From NCBI RefSeq assembly GCF_038719015.1, contig NZ_CP152276.1, positions 2,926,001 to 2,990,000 on the forward strand: a stretch of DNA of 64,000 nt, given 5' to 3'. Source of the stretch: Nguyenibacter vanlangensis (lineage in GTDB: Bacteria; Pseudomonadota; Alphaproteobacteria; Acetobacterales; Acetobacteraceae). This document shows, in pieces, positions 10,800 to 46,879 of this stretch (position 1 is the stretch's first letter; every line of letters starts with the position of its first letter). Made by a program: the position numbers and the translations under genes. Under the pieces are notes generated by a model, which was given only the letters and a program-made list of their open reading frames with translations, was not told the origin of the DNA and did not search any database.

Positions 10800-11585
10800 A
10801 TGAACGCCCTGTTCGATTTCATCGCCGCCCTTGGACGGGCCGCCCTGAACCTGGTCCGGACGGCCGGGGCGCTGACGCTGTTCGGGGCCGCGGCGCTGTC
10901 GCACCTGGTGCGTCCGCCCTTCTACTGGCGGATCTTCCTGGGGTCGCTGGTGGAGATCGGCTTCTTCTCGCTGCCGGTGGTGGCGCTGACGGCGCTGTTT
11001 TCGGGCGGGGTGATCGCGCTGCAATCCTATACCGGCTTTGCCCAGTACCATGTGCAGAGCGCGATCGCCGGCATCGTGGTGCTGTCGGTGACGCGCGAGC
11101 TGGGGCCGGTGCTGGCCGGGCTGATGGTCGCGGGGCGCGTCGGGGCCGCGATGGCGGCCGAGATCGGCACCATGCGGGTGACCGACCAGATCGACGCGCT
11201 GCGCACCCTGTCGACCAACCCGATGAAATACCTGGTGACGCCGCGCCTGCTGGCCGGGACGCTGGCGCTGCCGTGCCTGGTGGTGGTGGCGGACATACTG
11301 GGCGTGCTGGGCGGCTTTACGGTGTCGATCGCCAAGCTGGATTTTTCGGCCCCCGTCTATATCGCCGCGACCTTTGCCGCCGTGAAGCCGATCGACGTGA
11401 CGGTGGGGCTGGTGAAGGCGGGGGTGTTCGGGTTCCTGATCGCGCTGATGGGCTGTTACCATGGCTATAACAGCCGAGGCGGGGCCGAGGGCGTGGGGGC
11501 CGCCACCACGGCGGCGGTGGTCGCGGCGTCGATCCTGCTGCTGGCGTCCGATTATCTTCTGACCGACGTGTTCTTTTCGCAATGA
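10800..11585 (+). CDS. mlaE: MlaE-type ABC transporter permease
   Basis: A 261-residue integral membrane protein with the MlaE signature: VEIGFFSLPVVALTALFSGG, then TRELGPVLAGLMVAGRVGAA and EIGTMRVTDQIDALRTLSTN, and about five hydrophobic segments. In the Mla system it forms the membrane channel for phospholipid or hydrophobic-lipid transport between inner and outer membranes. The stop overlaps the start of the ATPase gene (ATGA). No MlaD-type substrate-binding gene follows in this operon, which continues into radA. Confidence 0.9.
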   Translation: MNALFDFIAALGRAALNLVRTAGALTLFGAAALSHLVRPPFYWRIFLGSLVEIGFFSLPVVALTALFSGGVIALQSYTGFAQYHVQSAIAGIVVLSVTRELGPVLAGLMVAGRVGAAMAAEIGTMRVTDQIDALRTLSTNPMKYLVTPRLLAGTLALPCLVVVADILGVLGGFTVSIAKLDFSAPVYIAATFAAVKPIDVTVGLVKAGVFGFLIALMGCYHGYNSRGGAEGVGAATTAAVVAASILLLASDYLLTDVFFSQ

Positions 11586-12372
11586 CGTCCGACATTCCCA
11601 AGATCCGCATTCGCGGCCTGTGCAAGGCGTTCGGCCCGAAGATCGTGCTGGACGGCATCGACCTGGATGTCATGCCGGGCACGTCGATGGTGGTGATCGG
11701 CGGGTCGGGCAGCGGCAAGTCGGTGCTGCTGCGCTGTATCCTGGGGCTGATCACCCCGGATGCGGGGTCGATCGAGATCGACGGGGTGGACGTGGTGCCG
11801 CTGTCGGCGCGGCGGCGCGAGGCGGTGATCGAGCGGATCGGCATGCTGTTCCAGAACGCGGCGCTGTTCGACAGCCTGCCGGTCTGGGAGAATGTCGCCT
11901 TCGGCCTGCTGGCCAGCGGGCGGCGCCACGGCGCGCGGATGAGCCGGGCCGAGGCGCGCGCCCATGCCGGGCGGATGCTGGAGCAGGTGGGGCTGGACCC
12001 GTCGGTGGGGGCGCTGTTCCCCGCCGAATTGTCGGGCGGCATGCAGAAGCGCGTGGGCCTGGCCCGCGCCATTGCCGGGCAGCCGGACATCCTGTTCTTC
12101 GACGAGCCGACGACCGGGCTGGACCCGATCATGGGGGCGGTGATCGACGGGCTGATCGTCGATTGCGTGCGGCGGCTGGGATCGACGGCGATCGCGATCA
12201 CCCATGACATGGCGTCCGCCCAGCGGATCGGCGACCAGGCGGCGATGCTGTACCAGGGCCGGTTGATCTGGCAGGGGGCGGCGGGTGCGCTGCTGGACAG
12301 CGGCAACCCGATCGTGGACCAGTTTACCCACGGCCGGCGCGAGGGGCCGATCAGCATGGAATTGCGGCGCTA

Positions 12373-33038: not shown

Positions 33039-33494
33039 TCACGGGGCTTCATCCGCCAGAAGTGCGTCGAGCAAGGGATGCCGTGACGTGACGAACGGAT
33101 TGACCACCGTCACGCCGCCCCAGGTGAAGCCGTCCTGCAAATCCTCCGACAACAGCAATCGGCATCCGGCATGCGACGCCGCCGAGAGGACAACCGACTC
33201 CCATATCCCCAGCCGGTGATCCGTGGCGAGATCGGCCGCCGTCAGCATGATTTCCGGCGAGGTTTCCACCACCGGGAAGGTATCGCGCCAACTCAACATG
33301 GCGTCACGGGCCTCGGCGCGCGACCGGCCGCCCTTACGGACCAGGACGTTGAAAAGCTCGCCCAGCACCTGCGCGGGGACAACGCCCCCCTCTCGTGGCA
33401 GGCGCCGGACAAGGTCCAGCGCCGTATCCCGACGCTCGGCCCCGTTCATGCCTTCGGCGTAGGCCAGCACGTTCGTATCGAGAACAACCCTCAT
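33039..33494 (-). CDS. PIN-domain toxin (VapC-like ribonuclease)
   Basis: A 151-residue PIN protein: MRVVLDTNVLAYAEG (Asp 6), VLGELFNVLVRKGG (Glu 46), then DHRLGIWESVVLSAASHAGC and LLSEDLQDG (Glu 117, Asp 118). In the closest VapC group the third acidic position is usually Asp (W-D-A); here it is Glu 99. The toxin is expected to cut tRNA or mRNA when its antitoxin is degraded. Its start overlaps the antitoxin stop (ATGA). Confidence 0.9.
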   Translation of the reverse strand: MRVVLDTNVLAYAEGMNGAERRDTALDLVRRLPREGGVVPAQVLGELFNVLVRKGGRSRAEARDAMLSWRDTFPVVETSPEIMLTAADLATDHRLGIWESVVLSAASHAGCRLLLSEDLQDGFTWGGVTVVNPFVTSRHPLLDALLADEAP

Positions 33495-33736
33495 TGGTCG
33501 TCCTCGTAAAGCTCGTCCCGCGTCCAACGACCGGCGTTCATGACCGGCTGCCTTTCCAGCCGCGACAGCAACGCCGCCCGTGCGCTGTCCGCCACGTTAT
33601 CGTGTCCGCCCGCGGGAACCAGACGCGCCACGGGCTTGCCGTGGCTGGTCACGACATAGCTGTGCCCCGCCCGCACGCCTCGCAGCAGGAAGGAAAACCG
33701 GCGATTGGCATCGGCGGCTGAAACGGCTTCCTCCAT
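33491..33736 (-). CDS. Phd/YefM-type antitoxin
   Basis: An 81-residue protein. MEEAVSAADANRRFSFLLRG and VVTSHGKPVARLVPAGG are the classic Phd/YefM DNA-binding fold; the C-terminal RSRLE-like tail and TRDELYEDDQ form the toxin-neutralising segment. ATG 33736 is preceded by GGAG. A 6-bp inverted repeat overlaps the probable -10 region upstream, consistent with autorepression by the antitoxin-toxin complex. Translationally coupled to the PIN toxin. Confidence 0.88.
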   Translation of the reverse strand: MEEAVSAADANRRFSFLLRGVRAGHSYVVTSHGKPVARLVPAGGHDNVADSARAALLSRLERQPVMNAGRWTRDELYEDDQ

Positions 33737-33760
33737 ATCGCGCTCCACGAAGTAGTTATA

Positions 33761-33800
33761 TTGCCTACTATAAGGCAAGGAGCATTCATTGCAAGTTTTT
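33761..33800 (-). promoter_or_regulatory. Toxin-antitoxin promoter with operator palindrome
   Basis: On the reverse strand TTGCAA, a 16-bp spacer and TATAGT form a promoter. The palindrome TTGCCT-N6-AGGCAA (33761-33778) spans the -10 element. Its centre lies about 33 bases upstream of the antitoxin ATG. Confidence 0.7.
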
Positions 33801-34015: not shown

Positions 34016-35644
34016 TCAGCGTCTGGCCTTGCGCCGCTTTTCGCGCGACGCGGCCTGGGACGGGGCCGCGGTGCCGCCCCGCGCGCGATCCAGGACGAAG
34101 CGGGCGTAATCGTCCATGTCGCCGTCGAACGGCGCCACCGTGTTGTCGGCGGCAAGCCAGAGCCGGTCCGCCACCAGTTCCATCAGCGACCGGTCGTGGG
34201 TGATCAGGATCACCGCGCCCTCGTACTCGTTCAGCGCGTCCAACAGGGCGCGGCGGCTGTCGATGTCCAGATGGTTCGTCGGTTCGTCCAGGATCAGCAG
34301 ATGCGGGGCGGCCATCGCCACCATGTTCAGCAGCAGCCGCGCGCGCTCGCCGCCCGACAGGGCCTCGACCGTCGTGCCCTGTTTTTCGAAATGGATGCCG
34401 AACTGCGCCAGGCGCGCGCGATGGGATTGCTCGCTGTCGGCCGGGCGGGCGGCGCGGATGATGTCCAGCGGCGTATCGGAGGGGTTCAGGGCCTCGATCT
34501 GGTGCTGGTGGAACCAGCCGACCTCCATCCGCGCTGATCGGGTCACCCGTCCGGACCGCGCGGCCAGCGCGCCGGCGGCCATCTTGGCGAAGGTCGATTT
34601 GCCGGCGCCGTTCACCCCCAGCAGCCCGATCCGGTCGTCGACGTCCAGCCGCAAATCCAGTCCGGCCAGGACGGGCGCGTCGTCGCCATAGCCGATCTCC
34701 ACCCCCTCCAGCCGCATCAGCGGCGGCGCCAGCGGGCGCTGCGGCGAGGGGAGGATGAAGGGGGAGACCCGGGCCTCGATCGTGGTGGCGACGGGTTCCA
34801 GCTTGGTCAAGCGCTTCATGCGGCTCTGCGCCTGCGCGGCCTTGCTGGCCTTGGCCTTGAAGCGATCGACGAAGGATTGCAGGTGCGCGCGTTCGGCCTC
34901 CTGCTTGGCGCGGGTGGCGTTCTGCAGGCGGATCTTCTCGGCGCGCTGGCGCTCGAATTCGTCGTAGCCGCCGGTGTACAGCTCCAGCTTGCCTTCGGTG
35001 ACGTGCAGGGTGAAATCGACCGAGTTGTTCAGCAGGTCCCGGTCGTGGCTGATGATCAGGGCGGAATGCGGATAGCGCGCCAGCCGGGCCTCGAGCCACA
35101 AGGCGCCTTCGAGATCCAGGTAGTTCGTCGGTTCGTCGAGCAGCAGCAGCTCGGGTTGCGCGAACAGGGCGGCGGCCAGCGCCACGCGCATCCGCCAGCC
35201 GCCCGAGAATTCGGCCATCGGCCGGTCGATGTCGGTGGTGGAGAAGCCCAGCCCGTTCAGGATCTCGGCCGCGCGGGCGGGGGCGCTGTCGGCGTCGATT
35301 TCGATCAGGCGCGACCAGATGTCGCCCATGCGTTCGGGTTCGGCGGTCTCGAGTTCGGCCATCAGCGCCGCGCGTTCGGTGTCGGCGGCCAGGATCGTGT
35401 CGAGCACGCTGACGGGCGTCGCGGGGTGTTCCTGGTCCACGGCGGCGACGCGGGCGGCCCTGGGAATCGCGATCTCGCCCCTGTCGGGCTGAAGCTCGCC
35501 CTTGATCAGCTTGAACAGGGTCGATTTTCCGACCCCGTTGCGTCCGACCAGGCTGACCTTCGACGGGTTGGGCAAGGTCACCGAGGCACGGTCGAAGAAG
35601 CGCCGCCCCCAGGCGTTGAAGACGAGTTGATCGATCTGAAGCAT
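34016..35644 (-). CDS. ABC-F family ATP-binding protein (Uup/EttA-like)
   Basis: A 542-residue soluble protein with two ABC domains and no membrane segments. Domain 1 has VGRNGVGKSTLFKLI, FSGGWRMRVALAAALF and LLLLDEPTNYLDLEG; the linker (ERQRAEKIRLQNATRAKQEA) is the charged interdomain helix; domain 2 has LGVNGAGKSTFAKM, LSGGERARLLLNMVAM and LLILDEPTNHLDIDS. A basic C-terminal tail (SREKRRKARR) follows. ABC-F proteins act on ribosomes, resolving stalled or drug-bound states. ATG 35644 is preferred because family members begin MLQIxxL. The open frame upstream is unrelated. Confidence 0.95.
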   Translation of the reverse strand: MLQIDQLVFNAWGRRFFDRASVTLPNPSKVSLVGRNGVGKSTLFKLIKGELQPDRGEIAIPRAARVAAVDQEHPATPVSVLDTILAADTERAALMAELETAEPERMGDIWSRLIEIDADSAPARAAEILNGLGFSTTDIDRPMAEFSGGWRMRVALAAALFAQPELLLLDEPTNYLDLEGALWLEARLARYPHSALIISHDRDLLNNSVDFTLHVTEGKLELYTGGYDEFERQRAEKIRLQNATRAKQEAERAHLQSFVDRFKAKASKAAQAQSRMKRLTKLEPVATTIEARVSPFILPSPQRPLAPPLMRLEGVEIGYGDDAPVLAGLDLRLDVDDRIGLLGVNGAGKSTFAKMAAGALAARSGRVTRSARMEVGWFHQHQIEALNPSDTPLDIIRAARPADSEQSHRARLAQFGIHFEKQGTTVEALSGGERARLLLNMVAMAAPHLLILDEPTNHLDIDSRRALLDALNEYEGAVILITHDRSLMELVADRLWLAADNTVAPFDGDMDDYARFVLDRARGGTAAPSQAASREKRRKARR

Positions 35645-35991
35645 GAGCGGGCCGTACCGTTTGGAACATGGGGGACGAAACGGGACAGGGCGTGCGCTGT
35701 AACGCTCCGCAGTTCCGACGCCCGGCTGTTCTAGGGCATGGTCCGGGGATTGGCGAGGTGCATTCTTTCCGGGGCAGAGATCCGAAGAACCGGAGCATTT
35801 CACCGCGCCGCAATCGACGGCGAACCAGGAGCGTGCCCTGACAATCGACCTCTCCGCGCTCGACCGCTATACGCTCCAGGACATGATTACCTTCAGCGAG
35901 CGTAACCATCTTCTGACGTCGTTCCATGCATGCATGTCGGCGGAGACGAACGCCACATCGTGATCGGGCGCGCGACGACTCTCCCTATACA
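35645..35991. other. Intergenic region with a possible gene relic
   Basis: No complete gene is visible. On the + strand, about 35838-35950 translates without stops as LTIDLSALDRYTLQDMITFS followed by further coding-like sequence, but there is no start codon or ribosome site. It may be a remnant of a small gene. The rest shows no feature. Confidence 0.35.
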
Positions 35992-36924
35992 TTATGATTG
36001 ATTCACGACGGGTTGGCCAACTGAAATCCGTTTCATCTGATTTGCGAGATATGCACGAATACGCGGCAGAAAAGCCGACGTATTGCCCCCGAGATGGGGC
36101 GTCAGGAGGAAATTAGGTGCGTTCCATAGCAGGTGGTTCGCAGGCAGTGGCTCCGGATCGGTCACATCCACCGCGGCGGAAAGGCGGCCGGAATAAAGTT
36201 CGGCCACCAGGGCCTCTTGATCAACGACGCTGCCGCGCCCGACATTGACGAACAGGGTACCGTCCTTCATCGCGGCCAGGACCGATCGATCGATCAGGCG
36301 TGTCGTCCGCGGCGTCATGGGCAGGCTACAGATCAGGACATCAATGGCCGGAAGAAGCTGGACGAGATCGTCTATACCGTGAATGTGGCCGTGTTCGTCC
36401 TGACGGGCAACCTGGCCGACTCGAACGGTCTCGACGTCGAACGCAGCGAGTTTGCGATGAAGCTCCTGCCCGATGCTGCCGTAACCCAGAAGAGCCACCC
36501 TTCGATCGGTCAGGGTGACGCGGCGTTCCTCCTGCCAAACTTGTCGGGCCATGTTACGTGCGGCGACATCGATGCCGCGCAGTGAGGCAATGACCAGGCC
36601 GATGGCCAGTTCGGCGGTCGACGACGCATGCACCCCCCGCGCGCTGCACAATACCACCCCCGGCGGTACTTTGCCGGCCACGTTGTCCACCCCCGTGCTC
36701 TGCGTCTGCACCAGCTTGAGATTCGGCAGCGACGCCAGCCGTTCGACCGTCAGGCTGGAATGCGCATAGGGAGTTATAACGGCGTCGATGGCGGGCAGGT
36801 CGTCTTCGGAAGGGGGATCGTCATCGGGCCATAAGATGAAATCGAGGCCTGGACAGCATTCTTCCAGATAGATCTTCAGTGCCCTGTCCGGAACCGAAAC
36901 CGTCCTGATCCCAAAGGTTGTCAC
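35992..36924 (-). CDS. D-2-hydroxyacid dehydrogenase
   Basis: About 310 residues. The C-terminal NAD-binding domain has VALLGYGSIGQELHRKLAAF (GxGxxG), LICSLPMTPRTTRLIDRSVL, FVNVGRGSVVDQEALVAEL and DVTDPEPLPANHLLWNAPN ending in LTPHLGGNT with the catalytic His; GVHASSTAELAIGLVIASLR is the dimer helix. It reduces 2-oxo acids to D-2-hydroxy acids or the reverse. GTG 36924 is chosen because AAAGGACGG precedes it; an ATG at 36999 is in frame but lies inside a palindrome. It is divergent from the TonB receptor gene and probably part of the same regulon. Confidence 0.9.
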   Translation of the reverse strand: MTTFGIRTVSVPDRALKIYLEECCPGLDFILWPDDDPPSEDDLPAIDAVITPYAHSSLTVERLASLPNLKLVQTQSTGVDNVAGKVPPGVVLCSARGVHASSTAELAIGLVIASLRGIDVAARNMARQVWQEERRVTLTDRRVALLGYGSIGQELHRKLAAFDVETVRVGQVARQDEHGHIHGIDDLVQLLPAIDVLICSLPMTPRTTRLIDRSVLAAMKDGTLFVNVGRGSVVDQEALVAELYSGRLSAAVDVTDPEPLPANHLLWNAPNFLLTPHLGGNTSAFLPRIRAYLANQMKRISVGQPVVNQS

Positions 36925-36985
36925 GTTCGCCGTCCTTTTTTCGTGTGGGGACCATTGTGCCAGAACATTTCGGTTGACGAAAGAT

Positions 36986-37012
36986 AATATGCTGTCCATG
37001 ATACAGCATATT
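36986..37012. promoter_or_regulatory. Perfect 10-bp-arm inverted repeat between dehydrogenase and TonB receptor genes
   Basis: AATATGCTGT-N7-ACAGCATATT is a perfect dyad in the divergent promoter region. The half-site ATAT-N-CTGT resembles the dyad before the IclR gene at 42647-42668. It probably binds the cluster's IclR regulator and controls both directions. Confidence 0.65.
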
Positions 37013-37099
37013 GACGATCTGCGATTATATGGTCATTTTCTGGCCTAGTCTGTGTGATGGCTATCCGTTCTCCTCATGCGTGAACCGGAGGCACGCCGA

Positions 37100-39433
37100 A
37101 TGACGAATCTGCAAGATAAGTTATTGATTATATTAAAGAGCAATGGACATCATGCTCTACTGGCGGCGCTGTGCTGCTCGGCCGCCACGAGCGCGGGTGC
37201 CCCGGCGCGTGCCGACACCACGATGTCGAACCATCCGGCGCGAGTGGGACCTCATGCACCTGCGCGGCGCGCTGCGCATCCAAGGATCGTGGCGGACGAG
37301 GCGATTACCGTCGATGGCGTACGCAATTCTCCGCTGAGCCTGCGCAAGTCGCAGCATATCGGCGAAGTGGTCACGCATATCAGTTCCGCGGACTTGGCGA
37401 CACATCATGTCGAGACGCTGCAGAACATCCAGAATCTGGTTCCGAACCTGACGATCCAGCCTCAGGGTGCAACGGCGAACAACAATTTCAGCCTGCGCGG
37501 CGTCGGATTCAAGGATTTCACGTCGAACAACACACCTTCGGTGATGACGTATGTGGACGGGGTCGCCTATCCAATCGGTTTCATGACCTCCGGCCTCATG
37601 TACGATCTGGCTGGCGTGGACGTGATGCCCGGACCGGTGGGATATACCCATGGCCAGGCCGTGACCGCCGGCGAGGTCAATATCACCACCAACGGCCCGA
37701 CGGATACGTTCCACGCCGGCGTGTCGGAGGACATCGCCAGCTACGCTCGAAGCCGCACCGCCCTTTACGTGTCCGGGCCGATTTCGGACCGGTTGCGTTA
37801 TCGGGTATCGGGCTATACCGCCCATGGCGGCGGATATCAGATCAATCGCTATGATGGCCAGCACCTGGGCGACGCTAACGAAGGCGCATTGCGGGGCAAG
37901 CTGGACTGGGACGTCGATTCCCGCACCAGCATCAACGTGACGGGGCATTGGGCGCAGGACGATTCCGATACGCCGGGTGTGTTCAACGTCAAGGATCTGG
38001 TCACGCCCTTCCTGGCGCCGGACAATAATAACCTGATGACAGGATGGGGGTTTCGTCCGGCCTTCACGGAGATGATCGGCGTGTCCGCCAATACCAAGCC
38101 GTTTCGCAACGACACGACCTGGGGCATCGACCTGACGGGACGTCATGATTTCGGATGGGGGGAATTCACGTCGATCAGCGCCTATGAGGCGATGTACGTT
38201 CACAACCTCCTGGATCTCGATTCCACCAACATCGCGACCGACGACCAGTATTTCACCAACAACTCGAACGTCTTCTCGCAGGAGGTGCGGCTGTCGAACG
38301 AGAATCGGCCGCGTCGCTTCCAATGGACGATCGGCGCCTATTATGCGCGAACGGCGACCAAGGCAAGATTTTTCTACGATTTTTCGGGATCGGGGCCGAG
38401 TCTGCGCCCGTATATCGAAGCGACCAGCTATAATCAGGATATCCAGGCATTCAACCAGTACGCGACCGCATCCTACCGGCTGGCGCCACGGTGGAAGATC
38501 TCGGCCTCGGTCAATCATGAAGCCGACGACCGGCATCTCTCAAACCTGGAAACCATCCAGTATGGTTTCAGCGATGTTCACTTTCCGACCCATGGGGCAT
38601 TGACGAACGAGTTCGGTGGCAAGGGCGAAATCGACTTTCAGGCAGCACCGAATTTTCTCGTCTTCGCCGACGTCCGCAAGGGGTTCAAGCCAGGCGGATT
38701 CACGGCCAACAACACCGTCATTTCCCAGCAGCTTAATCCCTACAAGCCAGAATCTCTGCTGGCCTATGAAGGCGGAATCAAGAGCGACTGGCTGAATCAC
38801 CGTCTGAGGGTAAATTTCGACGGTTTCTATTACGATTATCATGACCAGCAGATCCTGAGCCTGGAGCTGGTGCAGGGCTACGGTCTGGTGGGCGATTTCG
38901 TGAATATTCCTAAATCGACGATCTGGGGGCTGGAAGGCGAACTCGACGCGAACCCCATCCCCGGCCTGTTCCTGGAACAACATTTCGGATATCAGCGCGG
39001 CCGCTACGACGATTTGAAATTTCTCAACACGACTGCCGTCTATGCCAACTACGCCAAGACCGGTGTCTTTGCGCCGGCCTATAACAGCTATGACGGATAT
39101 GATTCCGGCATTCCGAAACTGACGCTGAACGGCAGTGTCAGCTACGTGATGCACCCGACGCAGGCCTGGGACGTCACCTGGCAGGGCGATTATTCCTATC
39201 GCGGCTCGCAGCTCGACGTGCCAGGCAACGAGATCTATCGGCTACCAGCCTATTTCCTGATGGGCATGAGCCTGAACGTCGCACCGCACCACGGACGCTG
39301 GTCCGTCGGGGTCTATGTGTCAAATCTGCTCGACCGTCGCTACGTGATTACGAAGGATAACGGATATAATTCCTTCTACGGTATTCCCGGCGCGCCACGC
39401 TTCGTCGGCGCCACGATCCGCTGCGATTTCTGA
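37100..39433 (+). CDS. TonB-dependent outer-membrane receptor
   Basis: A 777-residue protein. Residues about 1-40 form an unusual long N-terminal leader (hydrophobic HALLAALCCSAATSAGAPA, likely cleavage after ARA). A plug domain follows (SLRKSQHIGEVVTHISSADL, NLTIQPQGATANNNFSLRGV) and then a 22-strand-type barrel, ending in a terminal Phe (VGATIRCDF) as expected for outer-membrane insertion. It lacks siderophore-specific features and resembles receptors for organic ligands in Sphingomonadales and acetic acid bacteria. GGAGG precedes ATG 37100. It starts the forward cluster MOSC-reductase-Rid-MFS, so it probably imports that pathway's substrate. Confidence 0.92.
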   Translation: MTNLQDKLLIILKSNGHHALLAALCCSAATSAGAPARADTTMSNHPARVGPHAPARRAAHPRIVADEAITVDGVRNSPLSLRKSQHIGEVVTHISSADLATHHVETLQNIQNLVPNLTIQPQGATANNNFSLRGVGFKDFTSNNTPSVMTYVDGVAYPIGFMTSGLMYDLAGVDVMPGPVGYTHGQAVTAGEVNITTNGPTDTFHAGVSEDIASYARSRTALYVSGPISDRLRYRVSGYTAHGGGYQINRYDGQHLGDANEGALRGKLDWDVDSRTSINVTGHWAQDDSDTPGVFNVKDLVTPFLAPDNNNLMTGWGFRPAFTEMIGVSANTKPFRNDTTWGIDLTGRHDFGWGEFTSISAYEAMYVHNLLDLDSTNIATDDQYFTNNSNVFSQEVRLSNENRPRRFQWTIGAYYARTATKARFFYDFSGSGPSLRPYIEATSYNQDIQAFNQYATASYRLAPRWKISASVNHEADDRHLSNLETIQYGFSDVHFPTHGALTNEFGGKGEIDFQAAPNFLVFADVRKGFKPGGFTANNTVISQQLNPYKPESLLAYEGGIKSDWLNHRLRVNFDGFYYDYHDQQILSLELVQGYGLVGDFVNIPKSTIWGLEGELDANPIPGLFLEQHFGYQRGRYDDLKFLNTTAVYANYAKTGVFAPAYNSYDGYDSGIPKLTLNGSVSYVMHPTQAWDVTWQGDYSYRGSQLDVPGNEIYRLPAYFLMGMSLNVAPHHGRWSVGVYVSNLLDRRYVITKDNGYNSFYGIPGAPRFVGATIRCDF

Positions 39434-39467
39434 AGGACGATCGGGTGAGAGAGAGGAACGAGGCAGC

Positions 39468-39935
39468 ATGACCGGTCGTGTATGCGGTATATTCACCGCC
39501 GAAGTCGCCGCGCAGGAGATGATGGAAAGCCCGGAATGCCGCCTGCTGGCAAATATCGGAATCGCGGGCGATCGCTACGCCAAGCGTATCGGGCGGTGGT
39601 CCGACCGCCCCAAGACGGAACATCAGATTTCCTTTATCGAACTGGAGGTCTTGCATCAGATCTACGACGAAACCGGGGTGGTGCTGACCCCGCGCGAGAC
39701 CAGAAGGAATATCGTGACCTATGGCGTGCGGCTGAACGATTTTCTGGGACAGACGATCCGGGTCGGCGAAAATGCCCTGGTCTATGTCGAGAAACTGAAT
39801 CACCCCTGCAGATATCTCGAACGTCTGATCGACAAAAAAGTGATGGACAGGCTGCTCGGCCGGTCCGGCCTGAACTGCCAGGTCATCTCGGGCGGCATCG
39901 TACACCTGGGCGACCGTATCGAGAGGATTCTCTAG
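39468..39935 (+). CDS. MOSC domain-containing protein
   Basis: A 155-residue single-domain MOSC protein. LANIGIAGDRYAKRIGRW (28-45) is the conserved G-x-x-G-D-x-Y/H entry motif; ETRRNIVTYGVRLNDFLG (77-94) and RVGENALVYVEKLNHPCRYL (98-117) hold the cofactor site with the conserved Cys 114 that in related proteins ligates molybdenum or carries sulfur. MOSC domains occur in Moco sulfurases, mARC/YcbX reductases and YiiM. Here it is two bases before an FNR/[2Fe-2S] reductase gene, suggesting a split two-component molybdenum reductase. Confidence 0.88.
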   Translation: MTGRVCGIFTAEVAAQEMMESPECRLLANIGIAGDRYAKRIGRWSDRPKTEHQISFIELEVLHQIYDETGVVLTPRETRRNIVTYGVRLNDFLGQTIRVGENALVYVEKLNHPCRYLERLIDKKVMDRLLGRSGLNCQVISGGIVHLGDRIERIL

Positions 39936-39936
39936 G

Positions 39937-40875
39937 ATGGCGGTGCGGCTGTTGATGAAGGCGAGCATCGATCAGATCGTCGACGAGGGGGGCGACATCC
40001 GATCTTTCTATTTCAAGCCTGAGGATCGCGGGCATTTCCCGCCCGTACCGGCCGGCGCGCATACGTTGCTGCGAGTGGCGAAGGGCATGATGCGCCAGTA
40101 TTCGCTCTGCACGCCACCAGGCGACAGCCGCTATCGTGTCGCGATCCGCCTGGATGCGTTCGGGCGTGGGGGGTCGCGTGTCATGCATGAAGCCGCGCGG
40201 GTCGGCGACGTCTTCTACCTGTCCTATCCCCAGCCCGATTTTCCGCTGGACCCGGACCGGCCATCGTACAGTTTCTTCGCAGGCGGTGTCGGGATCACCC
40301 CGATCCTGTCCTTTCTCTATGCGCTGCGGGGCCGGGCGTGCCGGATCCGGCTGTGTTATTTCGCGCGTGCCGACGGCGCCGTTCCGTTCGAACAGGAGGT
40401 CCGCACCCTATGTCCCCAGGTCGAGATTTTCAATCCGACCAAGAACAGGCCGGTGAATTTCAAGGATCTGTTGCGCGGGTCGCGGGACGACGCGATCTAT
40501 TGCTGCGGTGGGACGCGGTTCGTCGCCGGGATGCAGCAGGCGGCGGAAGTCCTGGGCCTAGGGGACATCCACGTGGAATCCTTCGTATCGGTAGTCAAGG
40601 CCGGGTATCTCGGCGAGCCGTTCGTGGTGGACCTGCCGCGCAGCCGCCATGTGCTGCAGGTTCCCTCGGACCGGACCATGCTGGAGGTCTTGCTCGAGGA
40701 CGGCGTCGACATCGACTATGCCTGCGAGGCCGGCGTCTGTCGGAGCTGTATCGTCGACGTGATCGAAGGCGAGATCATCCATCGCGACCAATGCCTGACC
40801 GACGAGGAGCGCAGGACATTGATGACGCCCTGTGTCTCGCGCGGGCGGGGCCGGACCGTCATCAATTCCCTATGA
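39937..40875 (+). CDS. PDR/VanB-type oxidoreductase (flavin plus plant-type [2Fe-2S])
   Basis: A 312-residue electron-transfer protein. The flavin domain has RQYSLCTPP (53-61), the NAD(P)H domain FFAGGVGITPILSFLYAL (113-130), and the C-terminal ferredoxin domain Cys 263, 268, 271 and 299 in the C-x4-C-x2-C-x27-C arrangement. Such proteins pass electrons from NAD(P)H to a partner oxygenase or reductase. No oxygenase gene is in the cluster; the adjoining MOSC protein is the most likely partner, by inference. Its stop overlaps an ATG in the following Rid gene. Confidence 0.92.
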   Translation: MAVRLLMKASIDQIVDEGGDIRSFYFKPEDRGHFPPVPAGAHTLLRVAKGMMRQYSLCTPPGDSRYRVAIRLDAFGRGGSRVMHEAARVGDVFYLSYPQPDFPLDPDRPSYSFFAGGVGITPILSFLYALRGRACRIRLCYFARADGAVPFEQEVRTLCPQVEIFNPTKNRPVNFKDLLRGSRDDAIYCCGGTRFVAGMQQAAEVLGLGDIHVESFVSVVKAGYLGEPFVVDLPRSRHVLQVPSDRTMLEVLLEDGVDIDYACEAGVCRSCIVDVIEGEIIHRDQCLTDEERRTLMTPCVSRGRGRTVINSL

Positions 40876-40910
40876 AAACCGATTATATTACAAGCAAGGA
40901 GAGAATTATC

Positions 40911-41306
40911 GTGGACAGCAGGATCCATATCATCGCTCCCCCGAACGTTCTCGCCGGAAGCGGCTGGAGCCACATCGTAGCAGCCTCGGGGACGTTCGTC
41001 GCCATTTCGGGCCAGGTCTCGGTGGATACCGAAGGTCGCCTGGTGGGAAAGGACGATGTCGAGGCGCAGATCCATCAGGTCTATCAAAACCTGATCGCCT
41101 GTTTGCGGGCGATCAATGCCGGGTTCGAGCATGTCGTCAAGCTGACCTATTACGCCACCGACATCAAGACCGCGCTGCCGCTGATGCGCCGGATCCGGCC
41201 GACCTATATCGGGATGGACAAGCCGCCGGCCAATACGTTCGTCGAGGTGACTGCCTTGGCAAGGCCCGACTTTCTCTTCGAGGCAGAGGCATTCGCAATA
41301 CTGTAA
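40911..41306 (+). CDS. Rid family (YjgF/YER057c/UK114) protein
   Basis: About 131 residues. SHIVAASGTFVAISGQVSVD, then KDDVEAQIHQVYQNLIACLR, and VVKLTYYATDIKTALPLMRR, with a C-terminal PPANTFVEVTALARPDFLFE, match the Rid family. The catalytic Arg of RidA proteins (usually in S-x-x-R) is replaced in ALARPDFLFE-type context as is usual for Rid3-7 members. They hydrolyse reactive imines/enamines or related intermediates. GTG 40911 is chosen because AAGGAGAG lies upstream; ATG 40872, overlapping the reductase stop, is an alternative adding 13 residues. Confidence 0.88.
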   Translation: MDSRIHIIAPPNVLAGSGWSHIVAASGTFVAISGQVSVDTEGRLVGKDDVEAQIHQVYQNLIACLRAINAGFEHVVKLTYYATDIKTALPLMRRIRPTYIGMDKPPANTFVEVTALARPDFLFEAEAFAIL

Positions 41307-41324
41307 TTCATCCGAGGAAGCGAC

Positions 41325-42593
41325 ATGCCGCGTATCGGGAAAGAGACCGCTATCGTCAGCCTGCTGTTCGTCCTGTATACAGTCAACGGGGTCGACCGGG
41401 TCTGTCTGTCGGTCGCCATGCCGCTTCTTGCCGGCCATTATCATTTTTCGCCGATGCAGGAAGGCATCCTGTTCAGCAGTTTCTTCTGGACCTATTGCCT
41501 GTTCCAGTTACCCTGCGGCCTGTTGCTGGACATGATGTTGCCGTCGGTGGTGATCGTGGCGGCCATGGCGTGCTGGGGCGTTGCCGCCGCACTTTCCGGT
41601 GCGGCGGCAGGGTTCGGAACCCTGCTGGCCACGCGCCTGATGCTAGGTCTGTTCGAGGCCCCGTTCATGCCCGCGGCCAATATTATCGTCGAACAGACGG
41701 TGCGGGGCACCGGCCGGCAGGGGCGGATCACGATCATCGACAGTGGGGCTGCATTCGGCGCTGCATTCGGTTCGTATGCGACGTCGGCGATCATCGCCGC
41801 CACCGGGTCGTGGCGACTCGCTTTCCTCATCACCGGTGGCGCGGCGGTCTGTCTAGCGCCGCTGGCATGGCGGCGACTGGTCGCCCGCCGGCCGGCCGGC
41901 CGCGCGGGCGCCGTCTCGCCCGACCGGCGGAAGACCCCCGGGGGATTTCGCGGCGTACTGACGCGGGACGTTCTGTATATGTGTATGGGCCGGGTCGCTT
42001 TTGCCAATGTGTTCTTCGGCTTCGCCTCCTGGGCGCCGTCGCTGCTGATCGCGCGTCGCCATGTCAGTCTGGAGGTCGCCGGGATCATCACGGCCCTGAT
42101 GTTCGTTGCCGCCGGCGCGGGTGAGATCGTCGGCGGCGTCGTCTTCGGTCGCCTGCGCCGCCATCTGGCGTTCGATTCCGCGCTGCGAATGACGATCGGC
42201 CTGTCGGGTCCGGTCGGGCTGGCGGCGCTGGTGGCCGCGAACGGCCTCGGCAACCTTGTAGCCTGCGTGGCGACGCTGGTGGTGGGCTTGTTCTTCTATA
42301 TGTTCGGGGGGATCTACTGGGTCATTCCGGCCGCGATCGCGCGGGAAGGGCACTTGGGGCTGGTCGGGGGGATCCTAAACTTCTCGGGAACGTTCGGCGG
42401 AATCGCAGTCGGTATCATATCCGGCTGGATTGTGAAAAACTGGGGCTATAGCGCGTTGTATGGGTATTTTCTGGCCTGCATGGCGCTGTATATCCTGTTT
42501 TCGATGTGCCTGCGCCCGGAGGGGCGCGCGAGTAGCGCGCCGGCGCGCGACGGCGGTCCGGCGCTGGCGGTCGCGTCGGACGTGCCCGACTGA
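41325..42593 (+). CDS. MFS transporter (anion:cation symporter type)
   Basis: A 422-residue protein with 12 predicted membrane segments. NGVDRVCLSVAMPLLAGHYH and FSSFFWTYCLFQLPCGLLLD are the TM1/TM2 signature of the ACS family (glucarate, tartrate, phthalate and similar acids). RLMLGLFEAPFMPAANIIVE is the TM4 motif. It likely imports an organic acid across the inner membrane after TonB-dependent uptake. It starts 18 bases after the Rid gene, in the same operon. Confidence 0.92.
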   Translation: MPRIGKETAIVSLLFVLYTVNGVDRVCLSVAMPLLAGHYHFSPMQEGILFSSFFWTYCLFQLPCGLLLDMMLPSVVIVAAMACWGVAAALSGAAAGFGTLLATRLMLGLFEAPFMPAANIIVEQTVRGTGRQGRITIIDSGAAFGAAFGSYATSAIIAATGSWRLAFLITGGAAVCLAPLAWRRLVARRPAGRAGAVSPDRRKTPGGFRGVLTRDVLYMCMGRVAFANVFFGFASWAPSLLIARRHVSLEVAGIITALMFVAAGAGEIVGGVVFGRLRRHLAFDSALRMTIGLSGPVGLAALVAANGLGNLVACVATLVVGLFFYMFGGIYWVIPAAIAREGHLGLVGGILNFSGTFGGIAVGIISGWIVKNWGYSALYGYFLACMALYILFSMCLRPEGRASSAPARDGGPALAVASDVPD

Positions 42594-42646
42594 CGGGGTC
42601 GGTTTCCTCGTCGCTGGAACTCCGCTATCCTGACCGGCATGGTTGT

Positions 42647-42668
42647 CTATATTCTGTACGATATAGAT
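42647..42668. promoter_or_regulatory. Inverted repeat before the IclR gene
   Basis: TCTATAT-N8-ATATAGA is a perfect 7-bp-arm dyad about 35-57 bases upstream of the IclR ATG. The inner sequence ATATTCTGT resembles the half-site ATATGCTGT at 36988-36995. This fits autoregulation and control of the divergent pair by the same protein. Confidence 0.6.
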
Positions 42669-42703
42669 GCAACCGACCGGCAATACGGAGCGACAGGACC
42701 GTC

Positions 42704-43561
42704 ATGGCGCCACCAGGGCAGAAATCGACCAGATTTTCCGCGGAAAGGCCATCTGCGGAGCCGCTTCCCCGTCGGACGGACGAAACGGCCGCGGGCTCGA
42801 AATCAAAGTCGCCCGCCATCAACCGCTCCTACGACATTCTTGACCTGCTGGCCAACGCGCGCGCACCGGTATTGTCGCGGGCGGACATCACGCAGCAGAT
42901 GGGCCTGCCGCGTTCCTCGACCGCGAACCTGCTGAGCGCGCTGGAGGAATGCGGCCTGGTCGAGCGAACGGGAAACGACTATTCGCTGGGTCGCAAGATC
43001 GTTACGCTGGCCAGCGCTTATCTGCGGAAATTTGATCCCGTCCAGGAATTCTACCGGTTCTGTTCTAATTCGGACGTCCTGAAAGACGAAACCGTCCGGA
43101 TTGCCATCCTCGATCGCAATGAAATCATCTATATCGCCCGGTACGAAGGGCATCCCGCCATTCATCTGACGTCGAATATCGGGGACCACATGCCGGTGTC
43201 GCTATGCGCGGTCGGCAAGGCTATCGTCTCGCGCCTCGACGACGAGGATGTGCAGAAGATGTTTGCCGGAATCAAGATTCTTCCGGTCATGACGGAACAT
43301 TCTATCCGGACCGTCACCCAACTCCGCAAGGATTTGAAGGAAACGCGCCTGCGCGGCTACGCGATCGAAGATGAGGAAGCCACGCCCGGCGTCGTATGCC
43401 TGGGGATCGCGGTGCCCACCCGTGGCGTGAATGGTCCCAAGATGGGCGTGTCCGTCAGTTCGGTGAAGGTCACGTTCGACCAGCAGCGCCATGCGCGATT
43501 GCTGGAAGGCTTGCAAAGCCTGGTGCGAGCGATTGGCAGTCCCTTGGACGGGCTAGGTTAG
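42704..43561 (+). CDS. IclR family transcriptional regulator
   Basis: A 285-residue protein. After a basic N-terminal stretch of about 40 residues, the winged HTH covers about 45-110 (YDILDLLANARAPVLSRADI, LPRSSTANLLSALEECGLVE), and the effector-binding IclR domain follows (IAILDRNEIIYIARYEGHPA, LCAVGKAIVSRLDDEDVQKM, GYAIEDEEATPGVVCLGIAV). IclR proteins usually govern catabolic operons and bind pathway intermediates. It closes the cluster 35992-43561 and probably controls it through the palindromes at 36986 and 42647. Confidence 0.92.
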   Translation: MAPPGQKSTRFSAERPSAEPLPRRTDETAAGSKSKSPAINRSYDILDLLANARAPVLSRADITQQMGLPRSSTANLLSALEECGLVERTGNDYSLGRKIVTLASAYLRKFDPVQEFYRFCSNSDVLKDETVRIAILDRNEIIYIARYEGHPAIHLTSNIGDHMPVSLCAVGKAIVSRLDDEDVQKMFAGIKILPVMTEHSIRTVTQLRKDLKETRLRGYAIEDEEATPGVVCLGIAVPTRGVNGPKMGVSVSSVKVTFDQQRHARLLEGLQSLVRAIGSPLDGLG

Positions 43562-43715: not shown

Positions 43716-44627
43716 TCAGGCCTGGCGGTTTTCGAGGAGGCTGCGGCGGATGCGGCGGCCGCGTTCGATGCGGTCGACGATGAAGGCTTCGTCGCCCCAG
43801 CGGATCGCCCTGGCCATGGCCTGTGCGTCCTCCGTGAAGCGGGCGAGCATTTCCAGCAGGGCGTCGCGGTTGTTGAGGAAGATGTCGCGCCACATGACCG
43901 GGTCGGAGGCGGCGATGCGCGTGAAGTCGCGGAAGCCCGAAGCGGCAAAATCCAGCACTTCGGAGCGGGTTTCGTCGGCCAAATCGTCGGCGGTGCCGCA
44001 GATGGTGAAGGCCAGCAGGTGCGGCAGGTGGCTGACGATGGCGCAGACCCGGTCGTGGTGCGCCGCGTCCATGATGCGGGTGCGCGCGCCCATGCGGTGC
44101 CACAGCGTTTCGATGACCGAGACGGCCGCCGGGTCGGTGTCGGGCAGCGGGGTCAGCAGGCACCAGCGGTCGTCGAACAGGGTGGCGAAGCCGGCGTCGG
44201 GGCCGGAATATTCGGTGCCGGCCATCGGGTGGGTCGGCACGAAGGGGACGTCCGGCCGCAGGAACGGCGTGATGGCGCCGATGATCGACTGCTTGGTCGA
44301 TCCGACCTCGGTCAGGATCGCGCCGGGCTTCATGGCCGGGAGGATCGCCGCACCCACTTCGGCCACCGCGCCGACCGGCACGCAGAGGATGACGCAGTCG
44401 GCATCGGCCACCGCGCGCAGGGGATCGGCCTCGACCCTGTCGGCCAGGCCGAGTTCGGCCACGCGGGCGCGGACGGCGGGGCTGGCGTCACAGGCGACGA
44501 GGCGGGCGGCGATGGTGCCGTCCTGCCGGGCGCGGCGCAGGATGGACGAGCCGATCAGCCCCGGGCCGATGACGGCGAGCGTGCCGAACAGGGGGCTGTT
44601 GCCGGTGGTGTCGTGATGGCCGGTCAT
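43716..44627 (-). CDS. tyrA: Prephenate/arogenate dehydrogenase
   Basis: A 303-residue protein. LFGTLAVIGPGLIGSSILRR carries the NAD-binding GxGxxG (21-26), VILCVPVGAVAEVGAAILPA the Rossmann strands, LTEVGSTKQSII and FVPTHPMAGTEYSGPDAGFA the substrate loop with conserved His, and SHLPHLLAFTICGT the second conserved His region. It oxidatively decarboxylates prephenate (or arogenate) in tyrosine synthesis. ATG 44627 overlaps the hpnL stop (ATGA), so tyrA is translated from the hpnL transcript. Confidence 0.94.
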   Translation of the reverse strand: MTGHHDTTGNSPLFGTLAVIGPGLIGSSILRRARQDGTIAARLVACDASPAVRARVAELGLADRVEADPLRAVADADCVILCVPVGAVAEVGAAILPAMKPGAILTEVGSTKQSIIGAITPFLRPDVPFVPTHPMAGTEYSGPDAGFATLFDDRWCLLTPLPDTDPAAVSVIETLWHRMGARTRIMDAAHHDRVCAIVSHLPHLLAFTICGTADDLADETRSEVLDFAASGFRDFTRIAASDPVMWRDIFLNNRDALLEMLARFTEDAQAMARAIRWGDEAFIVDRIERGRRIRRSLLENRQA

Positions 44628-45658
44628 GGCCGTACCCCCTTCTGGGCGCCGGCGTCGCGGGCGGGTGCCGCGTCGCGGCGGCGCAGGCGGCGCATTTCGG
44701 CGCCCTGCCACAGCAGCAGCACCGGAATGCCGATCGCAAGGTCGCGGCCGCGGCGCAGCAGCGACAGGCCCAGCGCGACCGACGGGTCGATGCCGAAGGC
44801 CGAGCCCAGCGCGATATAGGCGGCTTCCTGCACGCCGAGGCCGGCGGGCACCAGGAACGAGACCGACATGATGCCGCAGGCCACGCCTTCGATCGCGATC
44901 ACGCCGGGCAGGCCGAGATGCGCGCCCAGGAAATGGAAGGCCACCCACACCGCGCCCGCGCTGCCGATCCAGGCCACCAGGTGCATCAGCGCCGCCCCGG
45001 CGATGCGGCCGGGCCGCGACCACACCGCGTCCAGCCGCTGCTGCAGCGTGTCGGCGCCGGCGAGCATGGCGCTGCGCCATTGCGCGGTGATGTTGCGGCT
45101 GAGCCCGCGCGCCAGGCGCTTGAGGAGCGTGCCGCCCTGCCGCTGGGTCCAGATGAAGCCGCCGATGCCCGCCCCCAGCAGCAGCGTGCCGATCAGGACC
45201 GGCCGGGCGAACGGGCTGTGCTGCTGGTGCATGACCAGGCAGGCCAACGCCAGCAGGACGAACACGATCTGGCCGAGGACCTCGGTCGTCAGGTCCACGA
45301 TGTTGGCGCTGGCGGCCTCGGGCCATTCAATGGCGTGGCGGCGGGGGGACGCGTCGGCCCCGGTGGCACGGATGCCGATCAGGATGCCGCCGAGCTGCGA
45401 GAAGGGCAGGCAGGTCGCCGCCGCGTCGCGCACCATGCGCGCCACGATGAGATGCGGCAGGGCGATCCGGGGGCATGCCACGTGCCAGGCGACGCCCAGG
45501 GTTGCGTCGACCGCAAGCTGTGCCGCCACGATGGCGACGAAGCCGACCGCGCCGATCGACAGGACGGCCTTGAGCACCGAGCCGACGCCGAGCCATGCCA
45601 TGCAGAAGGTGATCAGGGCCAGCCCCAGGACGGCCAGGAGGATTGTAAGACTTTTCAA
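44624..45658 (-). CDS. hpnL: Hopanoid-associated membrane protein HpnL
   Basis: A 344-residue integral membrane protein of the LPG-synthase TM/UPF0104 type. There are about eight hydrophobic segments; VLSIGAVGFVAIVAAQLAVD, CLPFSQLGGILIGIRATGAD, VDLTTEVLGQIVFVLLALAC, SFLVPAGLGVQEAAYIALGS and SVALGLSLLRRGRDLAIGIP are the conserved motifs. HpnL proteins neighbour hopanoid genes and may flip lipids. It is divergent from hpnA across 210 bases and overlaps tyrA downstream. Confidence 0.9.
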   Translation of the reverse strand: MKSLTILLAVLGLALITFCMAWLGVGSVLKAVLSIGAVGFVAIVAAQLAVDATLGVAWHVACPRIALPHLIVARMVRDAAATCLPFSQLGGILIGIRATGADASPRRHAIEWPEAASANIVDLTTEVLGQIVFVLLALACLVMHQQHSPFARPVLIGTLLLGAGIGGFIWTQRQGGTLLKRLARGLSRNITAQWRSAMLAGADTLQQRLDAVWSRPGRIAGAALMHLVAWIGSAGAVWVAFHFLGAHLGLPGVIAIEGVACGIMSVSFLVPAGLGVQEAAYIALGSAFGIDPSVALGLSLLRRGRDLAIGIPVLLLWQGAEMRRLRRRDAAPARDAGAQKGVRP

Positions 45659-45868
45659 GGACGGACCGTATCTTGTCTGCCGCGCCGCGGCCCGTCCCCC
45701 TGGTACGTCCTGGCGGGCGGTCCGGCGCGTAATCGGGCCTGACTTACACCACGGCAGGGTCTGGCGCCACCATGAGCTGTCGGGATAAATGGGTCGCGCC
45801 TATCCTGGTTGCCTATCCTGGGTTGCCAACGACCCTGTCAGACGAATTTCGGAGCACCCGACCGGATC
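45659..45868. promoter_or_regulatory. Divergent region between hpnL and the hopanoid operon
   Basis: No gene. CTATCCTGGTTGCCTATCCT contains the near-duplicate CTATCCTGG (45802-45810 and about 45815-45823). This region must hold the promoters for both directions; no clear sigma-70 element could be assigned. Confidence 0.4.
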
Positions 45869-46879
45869 ATGCCTGCCCCCACGCTTGTCACCGGCGCGAC
45901 CGGTTTTGTCGGATCGGCCGTCGCCCGCGCCCTGCTGCGGCGGGGGCACGCGCTGCGCCTGATGGCGCGGCGGGGCGCGGATTTAAGCAATATCGACGAC
46001 CTGCCGGCCGAGCGGGTGGAAGGCGACCTGTCCCAGCCCGCGACCTTTGCCGAGGCCGTGCGGGGCTGCCGCTACGTGTTCCACGTGGCGGCCGATTACC
46101 GGCTGTGGGTGCCGGACCCGGCGCCGATGATGACCGCGAATGTCGAGGGCACGCGCCGGCTGATGATGGCGGCCCAGGAGGCCGGGGTGGAGCGGATCGT
46201 CTATTGTTCGTCGGTGGCGGCGCTGGGGCTGATCGGCGACGGCAGCGTGGCGGACGAGGAGACGCCGGTCCACGAGCATGGGGTGATCGGGATTTATAAA
46301 CGGTCGAAATACCGCGCCGAGCAGGAGGTGCTGGCGCTGGTGCGCGAGCGCGGCCTGCCGGCGGTGATCGTCAACCCGTCGACGCCGGTCGGGCCGCGCG
46401 ACATCAAGCCCACCCCCACCGGGCAGATGATCCTGGATTGCGCGGCGGGGCGCATGCCGGCCTATGTCGATACCGGGGTGAATATCGTCCATGTCGACGA
46501 CGTGGCCGAGGGCCACGTGCTGGCGCTGGAGCGCGGGCGGACCGGCGAGAAATACATCCTGGGCGGGCAGGATTACCTGCTGCGCGACCTGTTTGCCATG
46601 ACGGCGGAGATCGCCGGGGTGCGGCCGCCGCGCGTCAGCCTGCCGCAGGGGGTGATCTGGCCGGTGGCGGTGGTGTCGGAATGGCTGTCGCGCGGGTTCG
46701 GCATCGCGCCGCGGGTGACGCGGGAGATGCTGGCGATGTCGAAGAAGAAGATGTTCTTCTCCTCGGCCAAGGCGGAGCGGGAGCTGGGCTATGCCCCGCG
46801 CCCGGCGCGGGACGCGGTGGCCGATGCCGTCGGCTGGTTCCGCCAGGCGGGGATGCTGGACGGGGCGCGGGGGCGGTGA
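45869..46879 (+). CDS. hpnA: Hopanoid-associated sugar epimerase HpnA
   Basis: A 336-residue extended SDR. LVTGATGFVGSAVARALLRR (6-25) binds NAD(P), SSVAALG and YKRSKYRAE (Y-x3-K) form the active site, and NPSTPVGPRDIKPTPTGQMI is the family-specific segment. It is associated with the hopanoid cluster and has been proposed to modify the sugar or ribose side chain. ATG 45869 is used; an ATG at 45809 would extend it by 20 unlikely residues. First gene of the hpn operon; hpnB follows almost directly. Confidence 0.94.
   Translation: MPAPTLVTGATGFVGSAVARALLRRGHALRLMARRGADLSNIDDLPAERVEGDLSQPATFAEAVRGCRYVFHVAADYRLWVPDPAPMMTANVEGTRRLMMAAQEAGVERIVYCSSVAALGLIGDGSVADEETPVHEHGVIGIYKRSKYRAEQEVLALVRERGLPAVIVNPSTPVGPRDIKPTPTGQMILDCAAGRMPAYVDTGVNIVHVDDVAEGHVLALERGRTGEKYILGGQDYLLRDLFAMTAEIAGVRPPRVSLPQGVIWPVAVVSEWLSRGFGIAPRVTREMLAMSKKKMFFSSAKAERELGYAPRPARDAVADAVGWFRQAGMLDGARGR

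Follow-up and report, generated by a model that had tools for sequence, protein, structure and literature searches.

Why should the gene of a stand-alone MOSC protein lie directly before that of a reductase whose phthalate dioxygenase reductase/VanB-type relatives serve Rieske oxygenases? The question is raised by a locus of Nguyenibacter vanlangensis within the 64,000-nucleotide stretch analysed here (the window), which covers positions 2926001–2990000 of a one-contig genome of 4.75 Mb. The initial annotation had read this locus as a possible split mARC-like pathway acting on an imported N-hydroxylated ligand. The two genes at its centre are:

39468–39935, plus strand: MOSC protein of 155 amino acids (PF03473, E 1.8e-9; 38.1 bits against a curated cut-off of 22.7)
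39937–40875, plus strand: phthalate-dioxygenase-reductase-type (PDR) NAD(P)H/FMN/[2Fe-2S] reductase of 312 amino acids (Fer2, E 3.8e-13; 2pia, E 8.7e-43)

A gagg-type ribosome site precedes the MOSC gene, and a single base, rather than the two first annotated, separates its stop codon from the ATG of the reductase gene. We propose that the two proteins probably make up a split, two-protein NAD(P)H-dependent reductase acting on oxime or N-hydroxy compounds. The argument, which rests on sequence comparison, draws on the recurrent pairing of the genes, complete cofactor motifs, a MOSC fold with a conserved cysteine, co-inheritance and the lack of a nearby Rieske partner.

The MOSC protein was modelled with a pLDDT of 93, and the predicted structure matches YuaD (1oru), mARC1 and YiiM and keeps the cysteine that ligates the molybdenum cofactor (Moco), where the initial annotation had named a structure devoid of a Moco pocket as speaking against its proposal. 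That residue, Cys114, aligns to the YiiM cysteine and is a predicted molybdenum ligand, and Asn81, aligned to the YiiM Asn, is a predicted pterin contact. PC and RRN motifs occur in all 67 MOSC relatives compared (at 15 named and 52 Acetobacteraceae loci). With a domain score above the curated cut-off, a MOSC fold and a single invariant cysteine, the protein belongs to the MOSC superfamily, and we infer that it binds Moco; a MoaA-type gene is present in 12 of the 12 genomes searched. Within the superfamily, the window protein has the MOSC domain alone, like the YuaD-type stand-alone members. Pfam detects in its 155 residues no MOSC_N domain, which is found at the N terminus of both mARC and YcbX, so that 'split mARC-like' is right in kind but does not make it a mARC member. 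The 3-alpha domain (PF03475) of YiiM from E. coli and Geobacillus is likewise absent from the protein, and gave no match in the genome at E 0.001. YuaD of Bacillus subtilis, also a stand-alone MOSC protein, is 25% identical in the structural alignment, and we know of no electron donor assigned to it. A second cysteine, in a GLNC motif (residue 137 of the window protein), is kept in 60 of the 67 relatives. The genome has a second MOSC gene (L001, 1462–2343, minus strand; 293 amino acids), with no PDR match in its 3.4-kb locus, and viral contigs scanned with the window MOSC protein yielded zero relatives.

The reductase carries, in the order seen in phthalate dioxygenase reductase, the motifs RQYS (flavin) and GGVGITP and a C-terminal C-x4-C-x2-C...C cluster, and its best solved structure over residues 19–308 is that enzyme (2pia). 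The FMN (RxYS), NAD (GGxGxT) and [2Fe-2S] motifs are complete in all 37 MOSC-linked PDR proteins compared (12 named and 25 Acetobacteraceae loci). The PDR-type protein is the predicted electron donor of the MOSC protein: it shares the FMN–NAD–[2Fe-2S] domain order of the phthalate dioxygenase reductase/VanB type, but its conserved neighbour is MOSC.

Whether the adjacency is conserved across genomes had been posed as a check, with absence of linkage elsewhere as the adverse outcome. We found instead MOSC–PDR pairs at 45 loci in two phyla (the window, 12 named loci, 25 in Acetobacteraceae, four in the Paraburkholderia family, two in the Pantoea family and L132, described below). A non-exhaustive survey with two peptide patterns, in which each of 84,980 species was represented by a single genome, gave the 15 named loci, 12 of which have PDR directly downstream of MOSC. 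These come from three proteobacterial classes and Actinomycetota, namely three Gluconacetobacter, Pantoea, Tatumella, Herbiconiux, Streptomyces, Saccharopolyspora (L010 and L011, two contigs of one genome), Nonomuraea and two Paraburkholderia. Among 299 Acetobacteraceae genomes there were 46 MOSC places besides the window at E ≤3.7e-48 and six more at 1e-20 to 1e-23; PDR adjoins MOSC in 25 of the close loci and none of the distant ones, and no PDR-like gene lies 3–9 kb from MOSC in these 52 loci, several of which are cut short where the contig ends. A search of 299 Paraburkholderia-family genomes gave L013 and four more as its strong matches (E ≤1.3e-47), PDR being present in 4/4 of the new ones and in 0/7 of those fetched from 30 weaker MOSC places. 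Two further loci, both with PDR, came from 295 Pantoea-family genomes, and 293 genomes of the Streptomyces order gave, at E 1e-40, only the locus already known. Altogether, distant MOSC genes had PDR at none of 16 loci (six in Acetobacteraceae, seven in the Paraburkholderia family and three in Phycisphaerae, these last also counting among the 15 named). As a separate observation, MOSC relatives with no PDR seen have a D-2-hydroxyacid dehydrogenase gene close by in L040 and L045–L049 and lie near acyl-CoA dehydrogenase genes in L081–L084, three of these four with CoA-transferase-like genes (by eye).

MOSC and PDR distances over 44 pairs are strongly correlated (r 0.92; maximum of 0.21 in 2000 permutations), a value that shared ancestry inflates, and the argument for co-inheritance therefore rests on the same cross-phylum grouping in both trees. 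Neither is a species tree: in both, the window protein is separated from the remaining Acetobacteraceae and groups with Pantoea and Tatumella and, within a starred group of 11, with Actinomycetota. On the strength of this shared grouping, the two genes appear to be transferred jointly between distant bacteria. In a tree of the linked PDR proteins and 15 PDR paralogues labelled 'rieske' in advance, a Tatumella PDR (L128), presumed to be an ordinary paralogue, fell in the MOSC-linked group, and its surroundings (L132) then showed the order MHS transporter–MOSC–PDR–regulator. Judged by these comparisons, the pair is a real, mobile and co-evolving module.

In the window, the pair is embedded in a cluster whose seven genes were all found where the initial annotation had placed them; the other five, and a promoter element, are:

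35992–36999, minus strand: D-2-hydroxyacid dehydrogenase, divergent (PF02826, E 2.9e-44); linked too in Pantoea and Tatumella
36986–37012, unstranded: perfect palindrome AATATGCTGT-N7-ACAGCATATT in the divergent promoter region
37076–39433, plus strand: TonB-dependent receptor (PF00593, E 7.2e-27)
40911–41306, plus strand: Rid/YjgF-family protein (reading frame open from 40872; PF01042, E 3.3e-23)
41325–42593, plus strand: MFS transporter (PF07690, E 7.1e-38; TIGR00893, E 9.1e-38, below its cut-off)
42704–43561, plus strand: IclR-family regulator (PF01614, E 6.4e-27; PF09339, E 2.2e-11)

For the Rid gene, the GTG at 40911, behind aaggag, is a likelier start than 40872. The window MOSC protein shares 92% identity with its counterpart in Gluconacetobacter azotocaptans and 90% with the one in G. 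tumulisoli. The set of dehydrogenase, MOSC, PDR, Rid, MFS and IclR genes is found again in three named Gluconacetobacter species and also, at 41–59% identity and with no TonB receptor, in Pantoea and Tatumella, a recurrence by which the arrangement exceeds chance. IclR identities are 95, 94 and 88% in the three Gluconacetobacter loci and 55 and 57% in Pantoea and Tatumella. Six genomes of the window's own genus in the Acetobacteraceae sample gave no MOSC match at E 1e-20, which makes the distribution of the cluster in that genus patchy. The MFS protein, whose best NCBIfam model is a D-galactonate transporter subfamily, is the predicted substrate importer. The receptor upstream is present, as first annotated, and is kept in L003–L005, but it has no match in L006 or L007, and Gluconacetobacter is the one genus among the named loci in which it is linked; at E 1e-5, 4epa (E 2.7e-14) is the sole solved relative. 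A siderophore reading, with ferric hydroxamate import and N–OH reduction, was set aside on that restriction to Gluconacetobacter among the named loci and on 4epa as sole solved relative at that threshold; no siderophore gene was seen in the region read.

The palindrome is exact in the window, L003 and L004, has one mismatch in L005 and is the only such site in the window at up to six mismatches. It lies between the divergent dehydrogenase and receptor genes and overlaps the called dehydrogenase start, and since that start sits inside a conserved palindrome, the true one is probably further in. We propose the palindrome as a candidate IclR operator. The Erwiniaceae loci L006 and L007 hold no copy with fewer than six mismatches; one six-mismatch site (L006, 9824) lies between dehydrogenase and MOSC, and such sites also occur elsewhere. 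Around the cluster, the window holds an ABC-F-like ATPase gene directly upstream of the dehydrogenase (34016–35803, minus strand), for which none of the 25 NCBIfam models shown exceeds its cut-off, a likely type II toxin–antitoxin pair (33039–33778, minus strand) of a PIN-domain protein (PF01850, E 3.1e-11) beside a Phd-family antitoxin (TIGR01552), and the hopanoid genes HpnL (44624–45658, minus strand) and HpnA (45809–46879, plus strand), both exceeding NCBIfam cut-offs.

Elsewhere, the pair has changing partners, among them XRE-cupin regulators, TctC- and DctP-type binding proteins and MHS-type transporters (Pfam, representatives), as well as branched-chain ABC transporters (by eye). Searches for Rid (iterated profile in L003–L090, blastp in L106–L118, tblastn in L132) placed it near MOSC in 11 of the 45 pairs (window, L003–L008, L066, L077, L108, L109), and within the 52 Acetobacteraceae loci in two at up to 3 kb and in none at 3–9 kb; the corresponding counts for D-2-hydroxyacid dehydrogenase are seven, six of them without PDR, and two. 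These Rid genes belong to different subgroups: those of L066, L077 and L109 are canonical and 67–84% mutually identical, whereas the window Rid is 34–37% identical to them and scores 52.7 bits, below the TIGR00004 cut-off of 106 that the L066 protein passes with 163 bits. The RidA arginine (PAR) is kept in L066, L077, L108, L109 and the second Rid of L008. In this last locus (8857–11960), the Herbiconiux pair has on its flanks two Rid genes that differ from each other and the gene of an alpha/beta hydrolase, and a hydrolase of the same cluster family adjoins the Streptomyces pair in L009.

We envisage a route in which electrons would pass from NAD(P)H through the FMN and [2Fe-2S] centres of the PDR-type protein to the molybdenum cofactor of the MOSC protein, which would remove the oxygen from the N–O bond of a small organic acid. 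This substrate would be an oxime, and most likely one derived from a 2-oxo acid; the pair would convert it to an imine, from which the oxo acid would form either spontaneously or with the help of Rid. The dehydrogenase of this cluster would then reduce the oxo acid to a 2-hydroxyacid. Uptake would be through the MFS protein, and in Gluconacetobacter also the TonB receptor, under the IclR regulator. Molybdenum binding, electron transfer and the reaction are what we infer here, and the parts of the scheme differ in standing: that the pair acts as an N-oxygen reductase we hold with fair confidence, oximes as the true substrate class are a tentative assignment with the chances slightly against it, and the Rid and dehydrogenase steps in this cluster are doubtful.

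An enzyme of this kind has precedents. In YcbX–CysJ and in mARC with cytochrome b5 and its reductase, a MOSC molybdoenzyme is fed by a flavin/FeS or haem chain and reduces N-hydroxylated compounds (PMC5818509, PMC10637980), and mARC accepts oximes among other N-hydroxy compounds (PMC10637980); the donor here would be a PDR-type protein in place of CysJ or cytochrome b5. YiiM-like fusions (e.g. Q89NR8) and Vibrio YcbX-type fusions hold MOSC and NAD(P)H/flavin/[2Fe-2S] modules in one chain (PMC10637980), whereas in the window the modules are divided between two genes, the MOSC protein is shorter, and genes for transport and regulation accompany the pair. The electron partner of YiiM was stated in 2018 to be unidentified (PMC5818509). 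A natural fusion of PNPOx-like, MOSC, 3-alpha and FNR parts (by eye) occurs in L032, cut by a contig end. The system is thus best explained as one of a known kind, with YcbX–CysJ, mARC and the fused YiiM-like proteins, and it is set apart by the separate PDR-type partner and the link to an oxime enzyme; the literature searched (one library) contained no paper that combines the MOSC domain with a dioxygenase reductase or with pyruvic oxime, or MOSC with an oxime reductase.

That link comes from Burkholderiaceae, where a homologue of pyruvic oxime dioxygenase (POD) lies within 3.3 kb of the pair in four of six loci (L013, L014, L106, L107), and in the other two (L108, L109) the neighbour of MOSC is a Rid gene whose product keeps the RidA arginine. 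It is only through these POD homologues beside related pairs that the 'N-hydroxylated ligand' of the initial annotation narrows to oximes. In L013 and L014 the gene concerned, of the class II aldolase family, lies 2.3–3.2 kb downstream of MOSC; L106 has the same arrangement, and in L107 POD and TctC genes are divergent from regulator, MOSC and PDR. The best solved relatives of the L013 protein (E 4.5e-72 and weaker) are 8IL8, 8IQA and 8IX6, which are Alcaligenes faecalis POD, its truncated form and a relative (PMC11841055). The L107 protein (E 5.5e-69) keeps the His triad, Gln53, Phe103, His104 and Glu164, with Tyr233 replaced by Trp, a permitted residue, and Phe69 of A. faecalis POD (AfPOD) by Leu. 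Proteins below E 1e-60 in KEGG form one group in PMC11841055, with activity confirmed for recombinants; our E-values are against PDB sequences, unlike that KEGG-based threshold. From similarity and active-site residues, the latter checked in L107, the Burkholderiaceae neighbour is a putative POD. Each genome of the four loci has one strong POD gene, beside MOSC, and the genomes of L108 and L109 (G745, G655) have two each, both elsewhere. The pod and podh clusters of A. faecalis carry an MHS-family transporter and a TctC homologue (PMC8629993), which also occur beside Burkholderiaceae MOSC–PDR pairs; neither of the two POD papers searched (PMC11841055, PMC8629993) mentions MOSC. POD acts oxidatively, turning pyruvic oxime into pyruvate and nitrite, whereas the reaction of MOSC–PDR would be a reduction. 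Either POD or Rid beside an N-oxygen reductase would fit oxime chemistry, because an imine product suits Rid and POD oxidises an oxime. In L107 (887–6898), the POD homologue has as neighbours hydantoinase A and B type genes and one whose product weakly resembles acetophenone carboxylase beta, with a score below the cut-off.

In its most specific form, our proposal would make MOSC–PDR an NAD(P)H-dependent enzyme dedicated to reducing oximes, as the counterpart of the oxidative POD, carried as a mobile two-gene module in several phyla and yielding carbon and ammonia from 2-oxo-acid oximes, with Rid finishing the imine or the oxime shared with nitrite-releasing POD; we regard this form as less likely than not and advance it with reserve. 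Several observations weigh against the proposed reductase and its oxime substrate. PDR does not adjoin MOSC in the three Phycisphaerae loci or in 21 of the 46 close Acetobacteraceae relatives (one of these, L045, is cut by a contig end 176 bases after MOSC). Three of the four POD occurrences share one arrangement, leaving the oxime link with two independent arrangements; there is no POD in the window genome (best match 35%) or in the loci searched outside Burkholderiaceae, including those of Acetobacteraceae, and 30 of the 45 pairs have neither Rid nor POD nearby. The window Rid, like those of L003–L007, has Asn (NTF) in place of the essential Arg105 of RidA, so that the Rid gene of the initial annotation stands in the cluster but the arginine criterion of PMC4433059 predicts no imine hydrolysis for such a protein. 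Given this missing arginine and the absence of POD, the imine step here may be spontaneous, or Rid may act otherwise. Moreover, L108 (3985–6711) and L109 (4844–6904) hold a second reductase-like gene with PNPOx-like, FNR and [2Fe-2S] parts (by eye), about 2.3 kb from MOSC on the other strand, which resembles the L032 fusion without MOSC. Rieske motifs, finally, occur 7–10 kb from MOSC in L003, L004 and L041.

Transporters and additional enzymes also vary so strongly between loci that one shared substrate is not required. The same two-protein reductase could serve broad detoxification rather than oxime catabolism, acting on another N-oxygenated substrate such as an N-hydroxylated nucleobase, an amidoxime, a hydroxamate or an N-oxide, much as YiiM and YcbX reduce 6-hydroxylaminopurine and mARC many N-hydroxy compounds (PMC5818509, PMC10637980). 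We consider this rather unlikely, as the presence of dedicated importers and of IclR or XRE-cupin regulators speaks for clusters with a specific catabolic role and the POD homologues beside four pairs point to oximes. The weight of this last point depends on what those homologues do. POD is a member of the class II aldolase family, an NCBIfam model called simply 'aldolase' also matches the L107 protein with a score above the model's cut-off, that protein departs from AfPOD at Phe69, and the A. faecalis authors allow other uptake or degradation roles for pod clusters (PMC8629993), so the Burkholderiaceae homologues might act on another substrate and say nothing on oximes. Their E-values to solved PODs and the active-site residues kept in L107, with the permitted Trp at position 233, make this unlikely.

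It is far less probable that the partner of the PDR-type protein is a Rieske oxygenase whose gene lies elsewhere, with the MOSC gene an unrelated neighbour, as its closest solved relative and the distant Rieske motifs just mentioned might suggest; the window genome does hold Rieske genes with no adjacent PDR. As first annotated, no oxygenase partner is nearby: the window has no Rieske domain (PF00355, E up to 0.001), and the Rieske gene nearest to the pair (2885697) is about 80 kb off. Each of the three other PDR-type genes found in the genome (E up to 1e-8) has a Rieske gene in its vicinity, at 0.8, 2.2 and 5.6 kb, and none has a MOSC neighbour. Rieske motifs were scanned for in L003–L017 and L039–L090 (67 loci), L106–L118 and L132–L137, with a family search in eight genomes. 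A Rieske oxygenase as conserved partner was rejected, no motif occurring less than 7 kb from MOSC in the 67 loci and none at all in L106–L118; within L132–L137, motifs occurred only in L135–L137, the loci of the three window-genome paralogues. L014 has a motif about 10 kb away, L076 and L081 have doubtful matches at 7–8 kb, and the L005 contig ends before a distance of 7–10 kb is reached. Among the paralogues labelled 'rieske', L129 and L130 (loci L133 and L134) have no Rieske motif in 16 kb, and for L131 the distance to the closest Rieske is about 19 kb. No count that sorts the tree by these labels is used here, and the correlation of MOSC and PDR distances is independent of them. Against a Rieske partner elsewhere stand also the 45 MOSC–PDR loci in two phyla, the correlated distances and the neighbour prediction that the Tatumella PDR passed. 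A P450 partner was likewise rejected, with a motif match within 6 kb of MOSC in L012 only.

About as improbable is that the MOSC protein acts as a sulfur carrier or cofactor-maturation factor for the PDR iron–sulfur cluster or another molybdoenzyme, since, although the earliest prediction for MOSC domains was a role as sulfur carriers (cited in PMC10637980) and xanthine-dehydrogenase-type molybdenum subunit and XdhC genes (by eye) lie 4–8 kb upstream of the Pantoea pair (L006, 2424–6035), the three other PDR-type genes of the window genome have no MOSC neighbour and the characterised MOSC relatives are reductases (PMC5818509, PMC10637980).

Read as a split N-oxygen reductase, the pair would name a concrete donor class for a bacterial MOSC enzyme devoid of its own electron-transfer domain, in a superfamily that has been called poorly studied (PMC10637980). 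The purpose of POD clusters is likewise unsettled (PMC8629993), and the linkage of MOSC–PDR with POD suggests that oximes may be natural substrates for both, with a reductive and an oxidative branch.

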